A stretch of 64,000 nt of DNA, from assembly GCF_003667345.1 (NCBI RefSeq), contig NZ_RCWF01000001.1:62001-126000 (forward strand). Direction: 5' to 3'. Below are positions 5,011-50,308 of the stretch, one piece after another. Position numbers and translations under genes: made by a program. The notes beneath the pieces are model-generated. The model was given only the letters and a program-made list of their open reading frames with translations, did no database searches and was not told where the DNA came from. Positions within the stretch are counted from its first letter, which is position 1. Every line of letters starts with the position of its first letter. This stretch comes from Poseidonibacter antarcticus (lineage in GTDB: Bacteria > Campylobacterota > Campylobacteria > Campylobacterales > Arcobacteraceae).

Positions 5011-5113
5011 AATATTCGCTCCTATTTTAGCTATTTTCTTCAGTCTTATATCTTAATCTTCTTTAATATCTTTTCAATATAAGGCAATGATTTCTCTTGG
5101 TCTCATATCAGTT
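5011..5113 (-). pseudogene. Possible remnant of a tyrosine recombinase (integrase)
   Basis: Read on the minus strand, this stretch gives TDMRPREIIALY, a stop, KDIKED, a stop, then DIRLKKIAKIGANI. The first part resembles the box around the first catalytic Arg of phage-type integrases (TGMRxxEIxALxWxDI). Two in-frame stops show it is dead. The match is short and judged by eye. The rest of the 4970-5176 gap shows nothing I recognise. Confidence 0.3.
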
Positions 5114-5176
5114 TAATCCTTTGGGTATTAAATCAATTTATATTCAATAGTAAATTTCGGAGATTCCGGAATTTTA

Positions 5177-7816: not shown

Positions 7817-8818
7817 CTAATCTCCCATTGTTGCAACTAAAACAGCTTTAATAGTATGCATACGATTTTCTGCTTGGTCAAAAACAATAGATGCTTTTGA
7901 TTCAAATACTTCATCTGTTACTTCCATACAATCAAGTCCAAATTTCTCTTTTATCTGTATGCCCATAGTTGTATCAGTATTATGAAAAGAAGGTAAACAA
8001 TGCATAAATTTAGTTTTTAAATTCCCTGTTTGTTTCATAAGTTGGGTATTTACTTGATATGGCTTTAATAAATTAATTCGTTCCTGCCATTTCTCTTCAT
8101 CTTCCCCCATTGATACCCAAACATCTGTATAGATAAAATCACAATCTTTTACTGCAACATTAATCTCTTCAGTGATTTGTAATTTTGCTCCAGTTTCAAG
8201 AGCAACAGATTGTGCATATTCAATTATTTCAGAGTTTGGCCAACAAGCTTTTGGTGCACATAAACGTACATCCATACCTAACTTAGCTCCACCAATTAAT
8301 AATGCATTCCCCATATTATTTTCTGCATCACCAATGAAACAATAAGTAATTTGATCTATTGGTTTTTCACTATGTTCAATCATTGTTAATGCATCAGCTA
8401 AAAATTGTGTAGGATGATACTCATTAGTTAAACCATTAAAAACAGGTACTCCTGAATATTTGGCAATCTGTTCTACAATATCTTGACCAAAACCACGATA
8501 TTCAATGCCATCATAAATTCTACCTAGAACTCGTGCAGTATCTTTAATTGTTTCTTTATGACCAATATGTGAACCTGTTGGTCCTAGAAAAGTCACATTG
8601 GCTCCTTGATCATATGCAGCAACTTCAAACCCTACTCTTGTTCGAGTAGAATTCTTTTCAAAAATCAGTGCTATGTTCTTTCTTTTTAAACGTTGTTGTT
8701 CTATACCTGCATATTTTGCAGATTTTAAATCTTTTGAAAGTTTCAACAAAAACTTAATTTCTTGTGGACTAAAATCTTTAATGGCTAAGAAACTTCTATT
8801 TCGTAAATTATATGACAT
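7817..8818 (-). CDS. arcB: Ornithine carbamoyltransferase, catabolic
   Basis: In this operon it should run phosphorolysis of citrulline to ornithine and carbamoyl phosphate. It has 333 residues with the carbamoyl-phosphate loop STRTR at 57-61, HPTQ at 135-138, the ornithine-side FMHCLPSFH, and [14 protein letters not shown] in the second domain. The sequence alone does not separate ArcB from biosynthetic ArgF. Its place between arcA and arcC makes the catabolic role likely. AAGGAGA precedes the ATG. Confidence 0.92.
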
Positions 8819-10162: not shown

Positions 10163-11617
10163 TTAAATTAATACACCAATACTCAATAACACCATAATTA
10201 GAATTGATAAGATCAATAATAGTGGCCATACGAAAATTAACCATTTTTCATAAGAAACTCTTCCTATTGCAAGACCACCAACAACTACTGCTGAAGTAGG
10301 TGTAATTAGATTAACTATACCACAAGCTGATTGGAAAGCTGTTACAACTAAATCACGTTCTACACCTGAAAAATCACCTAATGGAGCCATAATTGGCATA
10401 CTTAATACTGCAAGACCTGAAGTTGAAGGAACAAAAAATGAAAGTAAAACTTCAATCCAATACATAACATTGATAAACACTACTGTTGAGTATCCTTTAA
10501 TTGCTTCTGCTGAGAAGTTTAGAATTGTATCTGTGATATGTCCATCATCCATTATTACAACAATACCTCGAGCTATACCAATAATTAAAGCAACACCTAA
10601 AAGATCCCTAGAACCATTTACAAATGCATCTGTAAATTTTTTCTCTCCAACTCTTCCTATAACACCAATAACAAGTGCTGAACCAATAAATAATGCCGCC
10701 ATTTTTCCCATCCACCAGCCTTGAGAAGAAACCCCCCATATCATTATTGCAAATGTAGCTGCAAATACCACTAGGATAATTTGTTGAGATGTTGTAAGAT
10801 GTACATTATCAGCTGATACTTGTTTAAGAAAAAAGGCTTTATTACTTTCTTCTTGTGCTGCAACTATAGATTTTGAAGTATCTTCACGAACTCTTTTTGC
10901 ATACCACATCACATATGCAGTACAAATCAACCAACCAAGACCAAGAATAACTAAACGTAAAGTCATACCTTCAGTAAATGCAATACCTGCTGCATCAGAT
11001 GCAATAGTAGTTGAAAAAGGATTAATAGTAGAACCTAAAACACCTATACCAGCACCAAGTAGGATAATTGCTACACCCGTTATTGCATCGTATCCTGCTG
11101 CAATCATTATGGGAATAATAAGTATATAAAAAGCAAGAGTCTCTTCTGCCATACCGTAAGTAGTACCACCTAAAGCAAATAGTGCCATCATTATAGGAAT
11201 CATCCATATTTCATGACCCTTCATATTAGACATAGCCCGAGCAATACCTGTATTAATAGAACCTGTCAAATTAACTACACCTAAAAAACCACCAATTACT
11301 AATACAAAGAGAGCTACATCAATCGCATTAGCAGCTCCTGAATCAGGATCATAAAAACCTTTAATCGGAGCCATTATTACGTCTAAAATACCTTGTGGAT
11401 TAGAATCAACTATTTGATATGTACCTGGGACTGGAACATTCTTCCCTAGTGCTTCATTGTTTACCCGATCAAACTGACCTGCTGGTATTACCCATGTTAG
11501 AGCAGCCATTAAAATAATCAGACCAAAAAGAATTGTATAGGCACTTGGAAACCTTGATTGTATAGCTTTTACCATACTTGAGTCATCTTTGGGTATTCTA
11601 TCTGTTGAATTAGCCAT
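10163..11617 (-). CDS. arcD: YfcC-family arginine/ornithine antiporter (ArcD type)
   Basis: A 484-residue membrane protein with about 12 hydrophobic helices. Its N-terminus (ALTWVIPAGQF) and FVPSTSGLAVLSMPIMAPL region are typical of the YfcC/ArcD group of the C4-dicarboxylate-like superfamily. It would import arginine in exchange for ornithine, feeding arcA downstream. It is first in the operon, so the promoter should lie in the 424-bp gap upstream. It could instead carry another amino acid or peptide; the assignment rests on context. Confidence 0.85.
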   Translation of the reverse strand: MANSTDRIPKDDSSMVKAIQSRFPSAYTILFGLIILMAALTWVIPAGQFDRVNNEALGKNVPVPGTYQIVDSNPQGILDVIMAPIKGFYDPDSGAANAIDVALFVLVIGGFLGVVNLTGSINTGIARAMSNMKGHEIWMIPIMMALFALGGTTYGMAEETLAFYILIIPIMIAAGYDAITGVAIILLGAGIGVLGSTINPFSTTIASDAAGIAFTEGMTLRLVILGLGWLICTAYVMWYAKRVREDTSKSIVAAQEESNKAFFLKQVSADNVHLTTSQQIILVVFAATFAIMIWGVSSQGWWMGKMAALFIGSALVIGVIGRVGEKKFTDAFVNGSRDLLGVALIIGIARGIVVIMDDGHITDTILNFSAEAIKGYSTVVFINVMYWIEVLLSFFVPSTSGLAVLSMPIMAPLGDFSGVERDLVVTAFQSACGIVNLITPTSAVVVGGLAIGRVSYEKWLIFVWPLLLILSILIMVLLSIGVLI

Positions 11618-40101: not shown

Positions 40102-40494
40102 TTATTGACTTAAAAATGTTCTCCAGCTTAAAAGCCCACTTATCTCTTTTGCCTCTTTTAAATAATCGCTCTCACATAAAAACCCATATACACTACTTTC
40201 ATCTTCTAAGTAAACCGTTCCAATACCCAAAGGTGATTGTATTTGTTTCATAAACCTTCCAAAATTTTCAATAGGCATTGACCATATTTCAACTTCAATT
40301 TGGAAATCACACGAACTATCATAAATCATTCCAGGACGAATTGGGTCTTTATTTTCTAAAACAAATAATCTATATCCTTTTTTTGTTTTTGTTTTTCTAA
40401 CAAAATTTGCATTTAAGTCAGCAAGTTGCCAATTTAAAGGCAAATCACTCATATGTGCTCCACAAACTCCTACTAAGATTTCATTTTCATTCAT
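40102..40494 (-). CDS. Allophanate hydrolase C-terminal domain as a separate protein
   Basis: A 130-residue protein matching the C-terminal domain of AtzF-type allophanate hydrolases (VGVCGAHMSDLPLNWQL, GYRLFVLENK, IGTVYLEDESSVYGFLCE). In the fused yeast enzyme this domain is thought to decarboxylate the N-carboxycarbamate intermediate. Here it is its own gene, one base after the amidase gene ends. It is last in the guanidine operon. Confidence 0.85.
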   Translation of the reverse strand: MNENEILVGVCGAHMSDLPLNWQLADLNANFVRKTKTKKGYRLFVLENKDPIRPGMIYDSSCDFQIEVEIWSMPIENFGRFMKQIQSPLGIGTVYLEDESSVYGFLCESDYLKEAKEISGLLSWRTFLSQ

Positions 40495-40495
40495 T

Positions 40496-41824
40496 TTAAA
40501 CTCCTAAATATTTAGAAGAATAAGATATTAACTTCTCTTCTTCAAAATTATCTGCAACAATAGTCACCCCAAAAGGAAGTCCATTTTTTCTAAATCCAGC
40601 AGGTACTGCAATAGCTGATAAATCAAGTAGATTCATAAAATTTGTGTAATATCCAAGATTAGTATTTAAGGCTATTGGGTCTGCATTTACTTCTTTTATT
40701 TTATAAATAGTTCCAGTTGTTGGTGTAAGCATAAAATCATATTTTGCAAATATCTTATCCATAATTTTTCTATTTTTCTTTAGAGTATATTCTGATTCAA
40801 AATAATTAATTGCATCAATTTTATCCCCACCACTTATAATAGCTCTTACAGTTTCATTTATAATCTCAGGAGTTTTAGTAATAGCATCTTTTATAGCAAT
40901 AAATCGTTCAGTTACCCAAGGCCCACTATAAAGTAGATTTGCACTTTCATTAAAAGGTTCATAATCAATTTCTACACTTTTCCCACCAAGAGATTCAAAT
41001 TTTTCCACTGCTTCGTAGAAAAGTTTTTGGGCTTCTTTATCTCCAAAAAATTTCAAATCTTCTTTTTTAGGAATTGCAAATGTAAAATCATTTCTTGCTT
41101 CTTCACAAGAAGATATATACTTTCTACTATAAATATCTTTTTCATCATAAGAATTTGCTACTTTAAAAACTGCTTGCACTTCTTCTAAAGTTTTTGTAAA
41201 TATTGTTACACAATCTAAACTTCTACAAGCAGGAACAACACCACTTGTACTAATCACACCTTTTGTAGCTTTTAGTCCAATAAGATTATTAAAAGCAGCA
41301 GGAACTCTTCCTGAACCTGCTGTATCAGTTCCTAGTGAAAAGCTTGCCATTTCAAGAGCGACACTAACTGCACTTCCTGAGCTTGAACCTCCTGAAATGT
41401 ATTCAGGGTTTATTGAGTTTTTACATTCACCATAAGGACTTCTTGTTCCTACAAGTCCTGTAGCAAATTGGTCTAGGTTTGTTTTTCCAATAGGAATAGC
41501 ACCTGCTTTTATAAGTTCATTTACTACATAAGCAGATTCTTTTGCAATATATTCATACTCTTTACACGCAGCTGTTGTTGGAATATTTATTAAGTCAATA
41601 TTATCTTTAATTGCAAAAGGAATACCATATAGAGGTAAGTCTTTAGGATCTTGATTTTCTAAATTCTTAATATAAGGCTCCAAATCTTTATCACTTAAAG
41701 TATATATCCAAATATTATGGTCTTTTGTTTCTTTTATTTTCTTTTTAATTGATGTTAAAACATCTTCAATACTTATAATCTTATCTATATACTTTTTTCT
41801 TAAAATATTAATATTTAAATTCAT
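40496..41824 (-). CDS. atzF: Allophanate hydrolase, amidase subunit
   Basis: A 442-residue amidase-signature enzyme that splits allophanate. The catalytic triad is visible: K73 (AIKDN), cis-Ser 147 (SGGSSSGSA) and nucleophile S171 (GTDTAGSGRVP). The usual C-terminal domain is encoded separately downstream. It overlaps the carboxylase gene by four bases. In this operon allophanate would come from deimination of carboxyguanidine. Confidence 0.92.
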   Translation of the reverse strand: MNLNINILRKKYIDKIISIEDVLTSIKKKIKETKDHNIWIYTLSDKDLEPYIKNLENQDPKDLPLYGIPFAIKDNIDLINIPTTAACKEYEYIAKESAYVVNELIKAGAIPIGKTNLDQFATGLVGTRSPYGECKNSINPEYISGGSSSGSAVSVALEMASFSLGTDTAGSGRVPAAFNNLIGLKATKGVISTSGVVPACRSLDCVTIFTKTLEEVQAVFKVANSYDEKDIYSRKYISSCEEARNDFTFAIPKKEDLKFFGDKEAQKLFYEAVEKFESLGGKSVEIDYEPFNESANLLYSGPWVTERFIAIKDAITKTPEIINETVRAIISGGDKIDAINYFESEYTLKKNRKIMDKIFAKYDFMLTPTTGTIYKIKEVNADPIALNTNLGYYTNFMNLLDLSAIAVPAGFRKNGLPFGVTIVADNFEEEKLISYSSKYLGV

Positions 41825-44800
41825 TTATTATCCTTTTTTATTACAACTAAAACATCACCACTTTCAATATTATCACCCTCTTTATAAAGAATTTGTGATA
41901 CAAGCCCCGTATATTCACTTTCTATTTCTACTTCCATTTTCATTGATTCTAAAATTACTAAAACTTCACCTTCTTTTACTTTATCACCAACTTTTACTTC
42001 TATTTTCCAGATATTCCCTGACATAATAGACTCTATTGCTTCTTCATCATCATTTAAAATAAGTTCATCTTTATCTTCAACTGCTTCTATCTTTGTATCA
42101 AAACTATCAAGACCTTTTTCTTTCCACATTAATCTTTCATCTTCAAAAGCTTGAACTCTTTTTGTTTGGAAAGTATTTGATTCTTTTTTATTTTCTTTTA
42201 AAAATTGTTTATACTCTTTTAATTTAAATGATTTATCTTCAATTGTTAAAGGAAATTTTCCATATAAAAACTTTTCTCTAATATCTTCTAACTCTTCTGT
42301 TGTTACAGGATAAAACTTCACTTGATCAAAAAATCTTAAAAGCCATGGGTTTTTAAATTCTTTTGTTTGTCTATATGTATTCCACATTTGTAATGTTCTA
42401 CCAAAAAGTTGATAACCTCCTGGTCCTTCCATTCCATATACACACATATAAGCTCCACCAATACCAACAGAGTTTTGTGCTGTCCATGTTCTTGCAGGAT
42501 TGTATTTAGTTGTTACTACTCTATGTGATGGATTAAGAGGCGTGGCAACAGGTGCTCCTAGATAAACATCTCCTAGTCCCATCACTAAATAATCTGCATC
42601 AAATACGATGTTTTTAACTTCATCTTTATTCTCAAGTCCATTAATTCTTCTGATAAAATCAATATTAGATGGACACCAAGGTGCATTTGGTCGTACACCT
42701 TTTTTATATTTGTCTATTGCTTTTTGAATTGAAGGATCATTCCATGAAAGAGGAAGCCAAACAGTTCTTGAATCAACTTCTAAGTTTTCAATATCTTCTA
42801 ATGAATCTACGCTTTGTTTTACTAAGTTTAAAATAGTATCTCTACTTACTACACTTGTATTAAAGTGAATTTGTAAACTTCTAATACCAGGTGTTAAATC
42901 AATAATTCCCTTTAAGTCTTTATCTTCAATTGAACTCATTAAAGCATGAATAAAAAATCTAAGCTCAATATCAAGTTTTAACTCACCTGCTTCTATTAAA
43001 ATGAACTCATTTCCAGCAGCTCTTATAGTTATATCAATATCTAATTCATCATATTTAAAAGTATCAATAATTGGTGTTGCTTTTTGTACATCAAGCTTAT
43101 TTGTAAAGTCACTTAGTTTTGGTAATGCTGTATTTTCTTCTATTGCTTTTTCGCACGCTTTTGTCATTAAATCTGCATTTTCTAAGCTTACTGCTTTAAA
43201 TTTGATTTTATCTCCTGCTTTTAATTGACCTATTTTATATATTTCACACGAAATAATAGTTGCAGGACAAACAAATCCTCCAAGACTTGGACCATCAGGT
43301 CCTAAGATTACAGGCTGATCACCTGTAAAATCTATTGTTCCAAAGGCATATGCATTATCATGAATATTTGAAGGATGAAGTCCAGCTTCTCCTCCATCAT
43401 TTCTAGCCCATTTTGGAGCAGGTCCAATTAGTCTTACACCTGTTCTACTTGAATTAAAGTGTACTTCCCAAGAAGCTTCAAAAAATGCTTCAATATCTTC
43501 ATCTGTGAAAAAGTCTGGACTTCCATGTGGTCCATAAACTACACCAATTTCGTATTCATTAGTTAAACTTGGAATATCATAAGGTACCTTGAAGTCTTGC
43601 TCTTCTTTTGAGGGATAGAAACTTAAAACATCCCCAGCTTTAAGTGCTCGTCCTCCATGACCTCCAAATTTACCTAATGTAAAAGTAGAAGCACTTCCTA
43701 AATATTTTGCTGTATCAAAACCACCTTGTATAGCAAAATATGTTCTATTACCATTTCCAATTACTTTTTTAAATTCTAAAGTATCTCCTAGTTTTACCTT
43801 TATAGCTTGATAACTTTGTATTTCTACGCCATTTAGTTTAGCATTCATATTAGCTCCACCAATTGCTATAATACTATCTTGTCTAAATTTATAAGATGCA
43901 CCTATAAATGTCATTTCTATAAATGAAGCATCTTCTTTATTATTTAAAAGTTTATTTAGAAGTCGTGGTGTTAAGTTATCAATAGCTCCTGATGGTGGAA
44001 TACCTACATTCCAAAGTCCTTGACGAGAAGGATAATCTTGAATAGTTGTTAATGTTCCTGATTTTAATATATCTACTTTATATGGATTGTATTCAAGAGT
44101 ATCTAGTACTTTTGTATAAAAACGTGCTTGAGTAAAAAACTCTTCTTGTACTATTGCACTTAAATATAATAAGTTTGATTCAAGACCATATATTCTACTT
44201 TCATCTAATGCTTTTTGTAATTTTAAAACATTTTCTTCTCTTGTAGGGCTTACTGTAATTAGTTTTAATAAAAGTGGATCATAAAAGGGACTTACTTCAC
44301 ATCCATCTTCTATCCAAGTATCACATCTTGTATTACTTGGTAACTGCACTTTTGTAATAGTTCCTGTACTTGGTTGGAAATTTTTTCCTCCATCTTCTGC
44401 ATAAACTCGGACTTCAATTGCATGACCTTTTGGATTATGTTTATAATTTAATAGCTCTTTATTATCTCCATAAGCTATTTTTATCATCCATTCAACTAAG
44501 TCAACACCGCAAACCTCTTCAGTAATACCGTGTTCAACTTGTAATCTTGTATTAACTTCAAGAAAATAGAAATTATTGGTTTTTGTATCATAAATATATT
44601 CAACTGTTCCTGCACTTTTATAATCAACGGCCTTTGCTAGTTTATATGAAGCTTCAAATAATTGTTCTCTTAGCGCGTCTGAAATATTAGGAGCAGGTGT
44701 TTCTTCAATAACTTTTTGATTTCTTCGCTGTATTGAACAATCTCTCTCACCCAATGTTTTTATATTTCCTAAACCATCACCAAATATTTGAACTTCTATA

Positions 44801-45420
44801 TGTCTTGCTGTTTGGATATATTTTTCTAAAAACACTCCACTATTACTAAAGTTTGCACCTGCTAATTTAATAACACCTTCATAAGCATCAACTAATTCTT
44901 TCTCAGAGAAGCAAAGCTTCATTCCAATTCCACCACCACCTGCTGTACTTTTTAACATTACAGGATAAGTAATTTCTTTTGCTGTTATTTTTGCTTCTTC
45001 AATACTTGAAAGTAATTCACTTCCTTCTAATAATGGTACATCATTATCTTTTGCAATTTGTCTTGCTGTATGTTTTAATCCAAACTCTTCAATATGTTTT
45101 GAGTTTGGACCTATAAATACAATTCCATTATCTTCACAAGCCTGTACAAAATTTACATTTTCACTTAAGAATCCATATCCTGGATGAATTGCATCTACAT
45201 TATATTCTTTACAAATTTTTATAATTTTTTTATAATCAAGATATGTTTCATCAAGTGTTATCCCATCTAAAGATACTGAAATATCTGAATTCATTACAAA
45301 AGATGCATTTTTATCTGCTTGACTATATATTGTCACTGATTCTATGTTCATCTTTTTTAAAGTTTTTATTATTCTGTTTGCTATTTCTGCACGATTAGCA
45401 ATTAAAACTCTTTTAAACAT
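41821..45420 (-). CDS. Biotin-dependent guanidine carboxylase (urea carboxylase family)
   Basis: A 1199-residue enzyme. Order: biotin carboxylase (1-445; [14 protein letters not shown] glycine loop), carboxyltransferase parts of AHS2/AHS1 type (about 455-800), urea-carboxylase-specific region with [20 protein letters not shown] (about 980-1000), and a C-terminal biotinyl domain with [10 protein letters not shown], Lys carrying biotin. Databases call this urea carboxylase. The guanidine-II riboswitch directly upstream, the UAAP genes and the guanidine-I switch at the operon head point to guanidine as the true substrate. AAGGAA precedes the ATG. Confidence 0.92.
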   Translation of the reverse strand: [1199 protein letters not shown]

Positions 45421-45444
45421 TCTATTTCCTTAAAGTATTTTTGT

Positions 45445-45485
45445 GGGCCGTCCCGAATGAATATATCTTATAAGTCGTCTTATAA
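45445..45485 (-). promoter_or_regulatory. Guanidine-II (mini-ykkC) riboswitch
   Basis: Read on the minus strand there are two small hairpins, each with an ACGR tetraloop: TTATAAG-ACGA-CTTATAA (45485-45468) and GGG-ACGG-CCC (45454-45445), 13 bases apart. Both loops are closed by a G-C pair. This is the hallmark of the mini-ykkC class. The carboxylase ribosome site (about 45427-45432) lies a dozen bases downstream, so translational control is expected. Confidence 0.85.
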
Positions 45486-45526
45486 AATAAAAAGATAAGG
45501 TTCTTTTAAACCGTAGTTTTGTTTTT

Positions 45527-46147
45527 TTATTTATCCCAAATAATTAATTGAATTGGTGTTGGGTTATATCCATTACAAGGATTGTTAAGTTGTGGACAAT
45601 TTGAAATTAATACTAAAGTATCCATAAGTGCTACCATTTCAACATAATCACCTTTTTTTGATATTCCATCAACAATTGCTAAATGTCCATTTTCTTCAAC
45701 AGGTACATTCATAAAAAAGTTTACATTATTTGTAATATCTTTAGGACTCATTTCTAATTCACCAACTAATGTTAAGTAATTATCTCTACAAGAGTGCATA
45801 TATCTTTTATCTAAACCAAATCTAACAGAGTTACTCTCAGCACTACAATGTCCACCTAAAGTATCGTGATTTCCACAAGTATCTTCTACTATTTCCATTA
45901 AAACATTATCATCACTAGATATTAGTTTAGTTCCTGTTGTAATAAAAATACTACCTTGTTCTCTTATCGTATCTGTTGGACTATATCTATCGTTATAATC
46001 ATTGTTATTATAAAAAAGTGTATCAACTGCTTGACAACCTTCTAAATCAACTATTCTAAATGTTTGACCTTTTTTTACAACACCTGACCATGGAAGACCT
46101 GATAAAAGTTTTTCGTTATAAACTGCATTTTCAATATTTTTTGACAT
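45527..46147 (-). CDS. Carboxyguanidine deiminase subunit (urea amidolyase-associated protein 2)
   Basis: A 206-residue protein of the DUF1989 family, with a UAAP2-type profile: FRIVDLEGCQAVDTLFYNN, SIFITTGTKLISSD and ESNSVRFGLDKRYMHSC. Paired UAAP1/UAAP2 proteins form the carboxyguanidine deiminase CgdAB in guanidine-degrading bacteria. It lies ten bases after the partner gene. C- and H-containing motifs (CGNHDTLGGHCSAE) likely bind metal. A 106-base gap with the second riboswitch follows. Confidence 0.85.
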   Translation of the reverse strand: MSKNIENAVYNEKLLSGLPWSGVVKKGQTFRIVDLEGCQAVDTLFYNNNDYNDRYSPTDTIREQGSIFITTGTKLISSDDNVLMEIVEDTCGNHDTLGGHCSAESNSVRFGLDKRYMHSCRDNYLTLVGELEMSPKDITNNVNFFMNVPVEENGHLAIVDGISKKGDYVEMVALMDTLVLISNCPQLNNPCNGYNPTPIQLIIWDK

Positions 46148-46157
46148 TTTTTAATCC

Positions 46158-46874
46158 TTACGCAAAGTATCTATTTGTATTTTGAAAGCCTCTTTTGGCT
46201 TCATCAGAAAAATCTACATAATCTTCATCTTTAAAATCTATAGAATCAAAGATAGTAATTTCTACATCACTTGGGTTATAAGTACCTTTATCCATTGCAT
46301 GGGGTGTATTTGATAAAACAAGAAGAACATCCATATGTGCAGTTAATTCAATAACATCACCTTTTTTTGCACATCTTGGGTTTAATTCTAATTTTGAACC
46401 CTCTTTAACATCAACTTTTCTAAAAAGGTTTAAAGCTGGAATCATATCTTTTTTACCCATTCCATATTTACCAATTTCAATTAAAAAGTTTTCTCTATCT
46501 GATTTAAAGTATCCATTTCTACAGCTTTCATAAGTTGCATCACCTTCAAAGTTTTCTTTTATAACTCTTGGATTACTAATTCCACCTAAGATATCAAATA
46601 AACCATCTGTAGTATCACCTGTAATTGCAAATAAAACTCTTCCCATTTCAGAAAGTAAAACTTTTTTCTTTCCTAAAAAGGCATTCCATTGTACTTTTAC
46701 TGTATCTGCACTATTAAATCTTTCTGCTACATTTGAAGAGTTATAAAACATAGCACTTAAACTTGCATTATCATCTAATGCTTTTAATTGAATAGTTTGT
46801 CCTCTTTTTATTCTTTTTGACCATTTTACACTTGAATATAAAATTTCATTTAATACTATTTTTTCACTTTTCAT
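46158..46874 (-). CDS. Carboxyguanidine deiminase subunit (urea amidolyase-associated protein 1)
   Basis: A 238-residue DUF1989 protein, paralogous to the gene that follows: GQTIQLKALDDNASLSAMFY, SADTVKVQWNAFLGKKK and DVKEGSKLELNPR. It has the longer UAAP1 form. With UAAP2 it should convert carboxyguanidine to allophanate and ammonia. It overlaps the ABC ATPase gene by one base. Confidence 0.85.
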   Translation of the reverse strand: MKSEKIVLNEILYSSVKWSKRIKRGQTIQLKALDDNASLSAMFYNSSNVAERFNSADTVKVQWNAFLGKKKVLLSEMGRVLFAITGDTTDGLFDILGGISNPRVIKENFEGDATYESCRNGYFKSDRENFLIEIGKYGMGKKDMIPALNLFRKVDVKEGSKLELNPRCAKKGDVIELTAHMDVLLVLSNTPHAMDKGTYNPSDVEITIFDSIDFKDEDYVDFSDEAKRGFQNTNRYFA

Positions 46875-47605
46875 TATTTTTTTCCTTTTTTACTTGCATC
46901 AATATCATTTACGATTGTTGAGCCATATCTATTTGGGTAATCTTTATCAGTTTTAACCTTGTCAAATACTAGTACTCTAGTACCTAATTTAAAAGCTTCA
47001 CTAATATCGTGAGTTACCATTACAACACCAAAATTTAATTTAGAATGAATATCTAAAAGTAAATCATGCATATCTTTACTAATACCTGGATCTAAAGCTC
47101 CAAAAGGTTCATCTAGTAATAATAGTTTTGGTTCTTTTACTAGTGATTGTGCTATTGATAATCTTTGTTTCATTCCACCTGATAATTCGTGTGGATATTT
47201 TTTACTTGCACTATATAAACCAACTGCTTTTAAAATCTCATAAGCTTTTTCATAAGCTTCTTTTTTTGCTTTTCCAAAAAGTTTTCCAAAAAGTTTTGAT
47301 TTTTTAAACTCTAAACCAATAATCACATTATCAATAACATTTAAGTGACTTAATGTTGAATATCGTTGAAAAACAATTCCTCGCTCATCACTTGGTTCTT
47401 TTGGATATTCATTTCCTTCAAATTTTAGTGTACCTTTTGAGGGAGTTTCTACACCTAGTAACATTCTTAAAAATGTAGTTTTACCACATCCAGATGGTCC
47501 TACTAATGCACAAAATTCACCTTCATTCATAGAAAAGTTTAAATTTTCTAGAATAATATCTTCACCATATATTTTCCATATATTTTTAGCTTCTACTAAT
47601 TTCAT
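46874..47605 (-). CDS. ABC transporter ATP-binding protein of the guanidine operon
   Basis: A 243-residue ATPase of the nitrate/taurine-type import family. Walker A is GPSGCGKTTFLR, Q-loop VFQRYSTL, signature ELSGGMKQRLSIAQSL, Walker B LLLDEPFGALD, and the switch His is in MVTHDISEA. It works with the permease two bases upstream and the binding protein at the operon head. The substrate is inferred as guanidine or a related nitrogen compound from the riboswitch. Confidence 0.92.
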   Translation of the reverse strand: MKLVEAKNIWKIYGEDIILENLNFSMNEGEFCALVGPSGCGKTTFLRMLLGVETPSKGTLKFEGNEYPKEPSDERGIVFQRYSTLSHLNVIDNVIIGLEFKKSKLFGKLFGKAKKEAYEKAYEILKAVGLYSASKKYPHELSGGMKQRLSIAQSLVKEPKLLLLDEPFGALDPGISKDMHDLLLDIHSKLNFGVVMVTHDISEAFKLGTRVLVFDKVKTDKDYPNRYGSTIVNDIDASKKGKK

Positions 47606-47607
47606 TA

Positions 47608-48420
47608 TTACTCCTTACCAAACCAAGGGAATAGTTTTTTATTAAATTGTCTTAAAATAAAGTCAATTAAAAATGCTAAAAACGTAATCCATAAAACATA
47701 AGGTAAAATTACATCCATTGCTAGATAACGTCTAACTAAAAATATTCTATAACCTAAACCTTCCGTTGCCGCAATTGCTTCTGCTGAAATTAAAAATATC
47801 CATGCAGTTCCTAGTGTTGTTCTTATCGCATCAATTAATCTTGGTAATATTTGAGGAGTAATTACTCTTATAATGATCTGCCAAGTACTAGCACCTAAAG
47901 TTTGAACTTTAATAATTTGTTCACTAGGTATTTCTGTTACTCTTTGGTAAATTTCTCTTGTAATAATTGGAGAAACTCCGATAATAATTAAAACAACTTT
48001 AGATAGCTCCCCTAAACCAAAAACAATAAATAGAATTGGTAACAAAGCCATGGTAGGAATTAAAGAAAATAGCCAAACTAAAGGAGATAATGTTGAAGTC
48101 ATATAAGGTATTGCACCTATAGATACACCAATAACCAAGCCAATAATTGCACTAATAATTACACCAAAAAAAAGTCTTTTTAAACTCGATATTGTGTCTT
48201 CTAATAATATATATTTACCATTTCTCTTATTTTCTTCAAAAGCCATCTTACTTATTGTATTTACACTCTTCTCGATTGATGGCAAAAGCTTATCATTCGG
48301 ATTCTCTGCTAATCTTTGTGTTGAAGCACTTATATAAACTAGGATTATTATTATAAATGGCAATAATCCTAAAAGTATATTAGTTGACTTTGATGGAACT
48401 TGATTAATCAATCTTTTCAT
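47608..48420 (-). CDS. ABC transporter permease of the guanidine operon
   Basis: A 270-residue permease with about six membrane helices. The cytoplasmic EAA-type loop reads VQTLGASTWQIIIRVITPQ, and the final helices resemble SsuC/TauC proteins. The first periplasmic loop (about 38-70) is unusually long for the family. It lies ten bases after the cysteine hydrolase gene and pairs with the ATPase downstream. Confidence 0.9.
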   Translation of the reverse strand: MKRLINQVPSKSTNILLGLLPFIIIILVYISASTQRLAENPNDKLLPSIEKSVNTISKMAFEENKRNGKYILLEDTISSLKRLFFGVIISAIIGLVIGVSIGAIPYMTSTLSPLVWLFSLIPTMALLPILFIVFGLGELSKVVLIIIGVSPIITREIYQRVTEIPSEQIIKVQTLGASTWQIIIRVITPQILPRLIDAIRTTLGTAWIFLISAEAIAATEGLGYRIFLVRRYLAMDVILPYVLWITFLAFLIDFILRQFNKKLFPWFGKE

Positions 48421-48429
48421 TATTTACTC

Positions 48430-49062
48430 CTAAAATAGTTTTATAAAACTATTTACTGTAGATAGTTGACCCCAAACACCACCTTCTTCTAATATCATTT
48501 GTTCACAAGCTTCTCTTATTTCTGGTTTAAAAGCTGATATTGCATCTTTTAAATAAAAACAGTTATAACCTCTGTCCGTAGCCTCTCGTAAAGTAGTATG
48601 AACACAAACATCAGCAGTAACTCCAGCAATAGCAATATTTTCTATACCTTTATTTTTTAATATTTCATCAATATTTGTAGTTAAAAATGTTCCATAACTA
48701 GACTTATCTAAAACTATTTCATTTTTAAGAGGACTTAATTCATCAATAATATCGTTACCATATTCGCCACGAATCATAAGTCGTCCCATTGGTCCTTGAT
48801 CGCCATACTTTGCTCCAGCATTCTCAGATCTTTGTAATTTTATTTGTGAACAATCGGATAAATCACTTGCATAATTTTCTCTTGTAAATATTATTGTTAA
48901 ACCAAGTTCTCTTGCTTTGTCTAATAGCTTTTTTGTATTTGGAATGATTGGTTTTACCCAATCTAATCCATTACACTTATCAGCATAACCACCTTCAGAA
49001 CAGAAGTCTCTTTGAAAATCAATAAGAACCAATGCAGTTTTTTCTGTACTTAAAGAATCCAT
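48430..49062 (-). CDS. Isochorismatase-family cysteine hydrolase
   Basis: A 210-residue amidohydrolase of the isochorismatase fold. The triad is visible as Asp in LVLIDFQRDF, Lys in VLDKSSYGTF and Cys in GVTADVCVHTTLREATDRG. Family members include biuret, ureidoacrylate and nicotinamide hydrolases. Its position inside the importer genes of a guanidine operon suggests it takes a biuret-like or substituted-urea substrate carried by the same transporter. It lies three bases after the binding-protein gene. Confidence 0.88.
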   Translation of the reverse strand: MDSLSTEKTALVLIDFQRDFCSEGGYADKCNGLDWVKPIIPNTKKLLDKARELGLTIIFTRENYASDLSDCSQIKLQRSENAGAKYGDQGPMGRLMIRGEYGNDIIDELSPLKNEIVLDKSSYGTFLTTNIDEILKNKGIENIAIAGVTADVCVHTTLREATDRGYNCFYLKDAISAFKPEIREACEQMILEEGGVWGQLSTVNSFIKLF

Positions 49063-49065
49063 TTT

Positions 49066-50136
49066 TTAAAGTTTCCCTTCTGCAGCCATTTTTATATATG
49101 TATTATCAAATCTTAGTTTTATGTTATTTTTATCTCCATAAATTTTTCCATTAGGAAAAGAAATCCCAATAAATTCCGCATCAGGTGCACCTTCTCCAAG
49201 TATTCCATGCTCAAAAGAAAATTGACTAACTTTTTTCATAGTATTAATAATTTCTTGGCTTTCTACAAATTTAAGTGCATCTTTTACATTATAAAACATC
49301 ATTGTTGAGTCTAATTGTTCTTGGAAACTTTTTATATTTGTTCCTGAATCTTTAGCCATAAAAGATAGTGCCTCTTTATCTTTATTTTTAACAATTTCCA
49401 TAACTTCAAACCAAGCACCAACTAATGCTTTTCCTAATTCTGGATTATCATTTAATATTTTAGTATGTATAACAATATTATCGATTATTTCTCCAGGAAT
49501 ATTACTTGAATTAAATACTATATTAGCACCGTTAGATTTTTTAATTTCACTTAATTGTGGATTCCATGTAACTAAAGAAGTTACATCATCAGATGAATAC
49601 GCTGCTATAATATCAGCATCAGACGTATTAATAATACTAATATCTCTTTCACTAAGTCCTACTGTATCTAAACCTCTTGCTAATAAATAGTGAGAAACTG
49701 ATAACTCTACAAGGTTAACTGTTTGACCTTTAATATCTTCAAGTTTATTTTTATCTTTTAATACAATTCCATCATTTCCATTTGAAAAATCTTGAGTAAT
49801 TAATATTGTAGAATCAACTCCTCCAGCAGCTGGAATTGTTAAGACATCCATGTTCGTCATTAATGCTGCATCGAATGTACCTGCTGTATATTGATTGATT
49901 TGCTCAATGTAATCATTAACTTGAACTACTTCAATATTAATCCCATATTTTTTTGCCCATTTATTTACTATACCTTTTTGTGCAGCATAAGGTAATGGCA
50001 TATTTCCTACATAAATAGTCCACGCGATTTTAAAATCTTTTTTAGTCTCAGCTTGAAGAGAGCTTGTCGTTAATCCTAATACTAAAACAGACAGTGACAG
50101 TGCTTTGATTAGTTTTTTGAAAGTAGTTGATTTCAT
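49066..50136 (-). CDS. ABC transporter substrate-binding protein (NMT1/TauA-like)
   Basis: A protein of about 356 residues with a signal peptide (KLIKALSLSVLVLGLTT, cleavage near LQA-E). The mature part starts FKIAWTIYVGNMPLPYAAQ, a common opening of nitrate/taurine/thiamine-precursor-like binding proteins. I start at ATG 50136, preceded by AGGAGA; the frame extends to 50169, inside the riboswitch stem. It is the first gene after the guanidine-I riboswitch, so guanidine or a related compound is the probable ligand. Confidence 0.9.
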   Translation of the reverse strand: MKSTTFKKLIKALSLSVLVLGLTTSSLQAETKKDFKIAWTIYVGNMPLPYAAQKGIVNKWAKKYGINIEVVQVNDYIEQINQYTAGTFDAALMTNMDVLTIPAAGGVDSTILITQDFSNGNDGIVLKDKNKLEDIKGQTVNLVELSVSHYLLARGLDTVGLSERDISIINTSDADIIAAYSSDDVTSLVTWNPQLSEIKKSNGANIVFNSSNIPGEIIDNIVIHTKILNDNPELGKALVGAWFEVMEIVKNKDKEALSFMAKDSGTNIKSFQEQLDSTMMFYNVKDALKFVESQEIINTMKKVSQFSFEHGILGEGAPDAEFIGISFPNGKIYGDKNNIKLRFDNTYIKMAAEGKL

Positions 50137-50169: not shown

Positions 50170-50308
50170 AGAGGTATTAACCTCCCGGGCTTTTATCCCT
50201 CCGTGTAACTCTATTTAAGAGTCGGTTGCTCTTGGACCAGTCATCTTTAAAAGATCGGAACCCTAGCTACCATTGTTAGTTGTTTAAATGAGATATGTTA
50301 ATACCTCT
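50170..50308 (-). promoter_or_regulatory. Guanidine-I (ykkC) riboswitch
   Basis: On the minus strand the aptamer blocks appear in order: GCTAGGGTTCCG (about 50267-50256), ACTGGTCCAAGAG (about 50242-50230), ACGGAGGGATAAAAGCCCGG (about 50204-50185). They match the ykkC consensus closely. A 12-base outer stem is formed by 50297-50308 with 50170-50181. The strand that closes it can also fold locally as GAGGT-TAAT-ACCTC, an obvious switching alternative. It precedes the importer genes of the guanidine operon. Confidence 0.95.

Follow-up and report, generated by a model that had tools for sequence, protein, structure and literature searches.

The window, a stretch of 64,000 nucleotides from Poseidonibacter antarcticus, encodes a guanidine carboxylase pathway on its minus strand. 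In the direction of reading, the run of genes begins with an ABC transporter substrate-binding protein (49066..50136; TIGR03427, 519 bits, over the cut-off), followed by the transporter permease (47608..48420) and ATPase (46874..47605). Next are the two carboxyguanidine deiminase subunits CgdA, annotated as UAAP1 (46158..46874; TIGR03425, 247 bits, over the cut-off), and CgdB, annotated as UAAP2 (45527..46147; TIGR03424, 328 bits, over the cut-off). The downstream part is formed by a carboxylase of 1199 aa annotated as urea carboxylase (41821..45420; TIGR02712 urea_carbox, 1730.6 bits), by the amidase part of allophanate hydrolase (40496..41824; PRK08186, 603 bits) and, as a separate ORF, by its C-terminal part (40102..40494). 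Carboxylase residue D697 aligns with N1330 of K. lactis urea amidolyase and the aspartate of the motif GLGD aligns with D1584. Aspartates at the K. lactis positions 1330 and 1584 were described as criteria for a guanidine and not a urea carboxylase (PMC11410670). With both aspartates present, the annotated urea carboxylase is, as judged from these residues, a guanidine carboxylase (gca), for which CgdA, CgdB, the ABC importer with its binding protein and the allophanate hydrolase complete the pathway.

The allophanate hydrolase is thus split in two adjoining ORFs (40102-41824), and as matches to the two parts are also neighbours in relatives, separated by small gaps, a sequencing error is unlikely. 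The operon furthermore contains an isochorismatase-family gene (48430-49062) that is biuret amidohydrolase-like (214.6 bits versus a cut-off of 370) and for which no counterpart was found at E<=1e-8 in 18 related operon loci.

The initial annotation had placed a guanidine-I riboswitch at the start of the same run of genes, which is borne out by an aptamer at 50180..50277 on the minus strand (Rfam RF00442, 90.5 bits, cut-off 63). A CgdB search of 104 family genomes identified 11 genomes with the operon, the window included, and guanidine-I is present upstream in all ten relatives (86-93 bits) and hence in 11 of 11 with the window. A terminator-like scan showed a hairpin, GGAGGTTAATACCTCT, at 50170..50185 on the minus strand, overlapping the 3' end of the aptamer, and similar hairpins are found in relatives. 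In the window and in the relatives, this leader hairpin is formed from the 3' end of the aptamer (GGGAGGT-TAAT-ACCTCT), is flanked by outer complementarity (ACAC/GUGU) and has a poor U-tract. It probably belongs to the expression platform of guanidine-I and its features are compatible with a terminator.

Two hairpins before the carboxylase gene

The leader between the end of the CgdB gene (45527) and the start of the carboxylase gene (45420) contains, on the minus strand, two hairpins with the loops ACGA and ACGG that are read directly from the sequence (45445-45489). The order on the minus strand is TATTTTATAAG-ACGA-CTTATAAGATA, a 9-nt linker, GGG-ACGG-CCC, 13 nt, AAGGA and ATG. Hairpin P1 (45464..45489), defined by the sequence, by the Rfam alignment and by covariation in relatives, has 11 pairs with the arms 45479-45489 and 45464-45474 and the loop ACGA at 45475-45478. 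The linker TATTCATTC (45455..45463) falls inside the range of 7-40 nt given for guanidine-II (PMC7544219). Hairpin P2 (45445..45454) has only three G-C pairs, all of them perfect, between the arms 45452-45454 and 45445-45447, and the loop ACGG at 45448-45451. Both tetraloops are of the ACGR type and each is closed by a G-C pair. The Shine-Dalgarno sequence AAGGA (45427..45431) follows 13 nt after P2, and the ATG of the carboxylase is at 45418-45420. The span originally given for the hairpins, 45445-45485, had the right place but cut off a few pairs of P1, which reaches 45489.

Just before P1, at 45491-45513, lies a small hairpin, GGTTTAAAAGAACC, followed by a T-rich stretch, and similar hairpins are present in some Arcobacteraceae relatives. 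As an intrinsic terminator it is a weak candidate (-4 kcal/mol), no better than shuffles in most relatives, and was rejected.

A mini-ykkC search with Rfam had been proposed as a check. The Guanidine-II model (RF01068) aligns end to end at the exact site with 18.9 bits (E 1.6 for 5 kb and all families), and at E<=10 this is the sole RF01068 match in the whole 2.9-Mb genome (E 0.216). The score is nevertheless below the gathering score of 32 bits, which is a curation threshold and not a structural feature, and a default scan therefore reports only guanidine-I. The low score probably results from the long, A/T-rich P1 together with the short P2. The same element scores 35.5 bits in Sulfurospirillum arcachonense, above the Rfam cut-off, and homologues at the same junction in other genera reach 33-37 bits. 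The window element shares with the Rfam family two ACGR-looped hairpins, a short linker and a position upstream of a guanidine gene, and it is on structure and homology that it is classified as a guanidine-II member despite the sub-threshold score. With a model trained on relatives, the site reaches 72.9 bits (E 6e-13), a score that is circular for the window itself as the window is among the nine training sequences; the next place in the genome has an E of 0.64. Nothing else in the genome resembles the element.

Taken alone, a genome-wide E of 0.2 is weak, and it could be argued that the hairpins are a chance pair, or that they bind a protein or are processed and merely resemble guanidine-II. 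This is very improbable, as the core pattern GACGAC-N12-30-GGGACGGCCC is present a single time in the 64-kb window and absent from all 100 shuffles, as homologues above the cut-off occupy the same junction, and in view of the position of the element and of its conservation and covariation.

Conservation and covariation in relatives

Twin ACGA/ACGG hairpins are found directly before the carboxylase gene in 9 of the 11 operon-bearing family genomes, the window counted. The ACGR loops, proposed as a check in close relatives, are ACGA and ACGG in every family relative that has the site, with P2 always carrying ACGG in the Arcobacteraceae copies. Two relatives, G054, with a junction of ~12 nt, and G058, kept the operon and guanidine-I and have no guanidine-II element. 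The element is therefore not essential.

An alignment was made of ten Campylobacterota leaders, including those of Sulfurospirillum arcachonense and a Sulfurimonas MAG. Both loops, their closing G-C pairs, the P2 arms GGG/CCC and the AAGGA are invariant, and P1 varies with compensation. Seven of the 17 pairs of the whole structure are changed on both sides, a count matched by 1 of 500 shuffles, and the covariation score is 0.220 versus 0.129 for shuffled alignments, reached by 0 of 500; as the aligned sequences are related, these shuffle counts are not probabilities. With the partner slid by 1-3 columns, only 0-2 pairs are changed on both sides, and the share of paired cells, 88.6% in the true register, falls to 33-59%.

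The distance from the element to the Shine-Dalgarno sequence is short and constant (~13 nt). G092 and the Sulfurimonas MAG have a gene for a metallo-beta-lactamase-fold protein between cgdB and the carboxylase gene, and the element is located after this inserted gene, directly before the carboxylase gene. It thus stays beside the carboxylase, to which it is linked rather than to the cgdB end. These data also bear on whether the element is a relic or otherwise non-functional, so that guanidine-I alone regulates the operon. The Rfam score of 18.9 bits, the three perfect pairs of P2 in the window and the absence from two relatives would fit such a relic. However, the compensatory changes in P1 together with invariant loops over the ten leaders, and the unchanged place next to the carboxylase despite an inserted gene, make it quite improbable. 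Both parts of the initial assignment hold: a guanidine-II type element, supported by the ACGR loops, the full-length Rfam alignment, the conservation and the covariation, and its place before the carboxylase gene, 13 nt from the Shine-Dalgarno sequence of a gene with both guanidine-type aspartates.

Proposed action on carboxylase translation

It is highly probable that the hairpins form a guanidine-II (mini-ykkC) riboswitch that serves the guanidine carboxylase, by the mechanism set out below, in a guanidine-assimilation operon headed by guanidine-I. This reading is built on a directly observed structure that is conserved, with compensatory changes, and fixed in its position before the carboxylase gene, and further on the identity of the carboxylase and the guanidine-I at the head. 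Ligand binding, the ON direction, translational action and a single shared transcript are expected by analogy with published homologues. Guanidine-II was described as a translational ON switch in which the loops of the two hairpins dock with each other around two guanidinium ions (PMC12186494, PMC9561414), and by this analogy a translational ON control of the carboxylase is likely. If guanidine is present, guanidine-I would permit transcription of the operon, comprising the importer, CgdA, CgdB and the genes onward. The two guanidine-II hairpins would then dock around two guanidinium ions, and on the transcript that guanidine-I has let through, the docked element would increase carboxylase translation. 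Translation of the coupled allophanate hydrolase would probably be raised as well.

In fold calculations for the window, P1 and P2 form with a probability near 1 even without ligand, and the accessibility of the Shine-Dalgarno sequence was unchanged when both hairpins were forced. No conserved anti-Shine-Dalgarno pairing was found: duplexes of the linker or the 5' flank with the initiation region showed no consistent excess over shuffles, with a mean z of -0.27 (linker) and 0.13 (5' flank) in 17 Campylobacterota leaders and of 0.40 and 0.22 in 29 others. In locus L025, the linker gave a z of -3.0 versus the region of the UUG start, which is suggestive only. The missing anti-Shine-Dalgarno pairing would be in line with an aptamer that acts mainly on mRNA stability or on Rho-dependent termination downstream of cgdB, and not directly on initiation. 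This appears unlikely, as the element is always directly before the carboxylase at a constant distance of ~13 nt from the Shine-Dalgarno sequence, and as this class was described to act on translation only, with initiation shown to depend on the ligand in P. aeruginosa (PMC9561414).

The sigma-70 consensus is poorly suited to Campylobacterota, and that no match to an internal sigma-70-like promoter was found in 45421-45526 is for this reason weak evidence.

Two guanidine riboswitches in one operon

The combination of both classes in one operon was reported for Vreelandella boliviensis (PMC12508155), where the 5' UTR contains guanidine-I, the junction of cgdB and gca contains guanidine-II, and in-line probing was used. 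The apparent KD values for guanidine are 44 uM for guanidine-I and 93 uM for guanidine-II, i.e., ~twofold apart, and methylguanidine is bound by guanidine-II only and not by guanidine-I (PMC12508155). This operon, recovered here as L088 with both Rfam matches over the cut-off, has the same two riboswitch classes in the same two places with the same genes. It differs by additionally having mgdH and mgdL, and the window differs by its long, A/T-rich P1, which lowers the Rfam score, and by the P2 loop ACGG. A review describes a layout with guanidine-I and guanidine-II in Raoultella, Erwinia and Klebsiella (PMC12186494). As in the window, guanidine-I precedes the importer and deiminase genes and guanidine-II precedes carboxylase and allophanate hydrolase; in contrast to these enterobacteria, the window is from another phylum, its allophanate hydrolase is encoded by two ORFs and a biuret-hydrolase-like gene lies in the operon. 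In a census of 83 carboxylase loci, 46 have twin ACGR hairpins <=160 nt from the carboxylase and guanidine-I ~4-5 kb upstream; it was drawn from the best CgdB matches, which favours close CgdB relatives, includes two contigs that are duplicated and used a simple guanidine-I pattern. As the layout is already published and recurs in these loci, the double arrangement is not new, and the window is an additional, well-conserved case of it in an Arcobacter-like bacterium. In a survey of tandem riboswitches published in 2022, none of the guanidine classes was reported in tandem (PMC9481103). As we read it, this survey covers adjacent riboswitches before one gene, so that a pairing at operon scale is outside its scope and not contradictory. 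A literature search for guanidine riboswitches in Arcobacter and Campylobacterota returned nothing beyond an incidental match.

The initial annotation had suggested that the two RNAs set different thresholds for uptake and degradation. The gene order does not simply follow this division, as cgdA and cgdB are upstream of guanidine-II, which leaves the carboxylase and the two-part allophanate hydrolase as the only downstream genes. By analogy with the published pair, in which the affinities are twofold apart and the ligand ranges differ more clearly, a difference in specificity is at least as plausible as one in threshold. A divided labour in Campylobacterota, in which guanidine-I sets transcription by guanidine and the internal guanidine-II is adjusted to another concentration or recognises a related guanidino compound, would result in a two-input gate on the carboxylase; we consider this doubtful. 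A layout published for Gammaproteobacteria is kept across several Campylobacterota families, with two unrelated guanidine-sensing RNAs in fixed places of one degradation operon. Natural variants, in which the element is lost, lies beside the carboxylase past an inserted gene or has a second copy, could serve to study why two sensors are needed in a single operon.

Guanidine-II exceeds the Rfam cut-off in 25 of 397 genomes of the phylum, and among the loci read it precedes the carboxylase gene, cgdA or a gdx-like small multidrug exporter. The exporter arrangement is found elsewhere in Arcobacteraceae genomes (L116, L117, L118, L122, L142), and G011 and G013 thus each have two elements, which precede the exporter and the carboxylase, respectively. 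Locus L163 (G427), from another Campylobacterota family, has three guanidine riboswitches in one operon, all over the Rfam cut-off (5045-5143, 7886-7928, 11241-11282), where guanidine-I heads the operon and the two guanidine-II copies precede cgdA and the carboxylase gene; G286, G374 and G386 also have two guanidine-II copies ~3.3 kb apart. Two guanidine-I aptamers ~1.6 kb apart are present in L164 (12237-12338 and 13875-13973) and L167 (12155-12258 and 13815-13914). The outer aptamer of L164 precedes a gene for a 422-aa outer-membrane porin-like protein with no Pfam match, which suggests guanidine-controlled uptake across the outer membrane. A metallo-beta-lactamase-fold hydrolase (~260 aa) is encoded between cgdB and the carboxylase gene in L104, L026, L163, L164 and L167, which belong to several genera.
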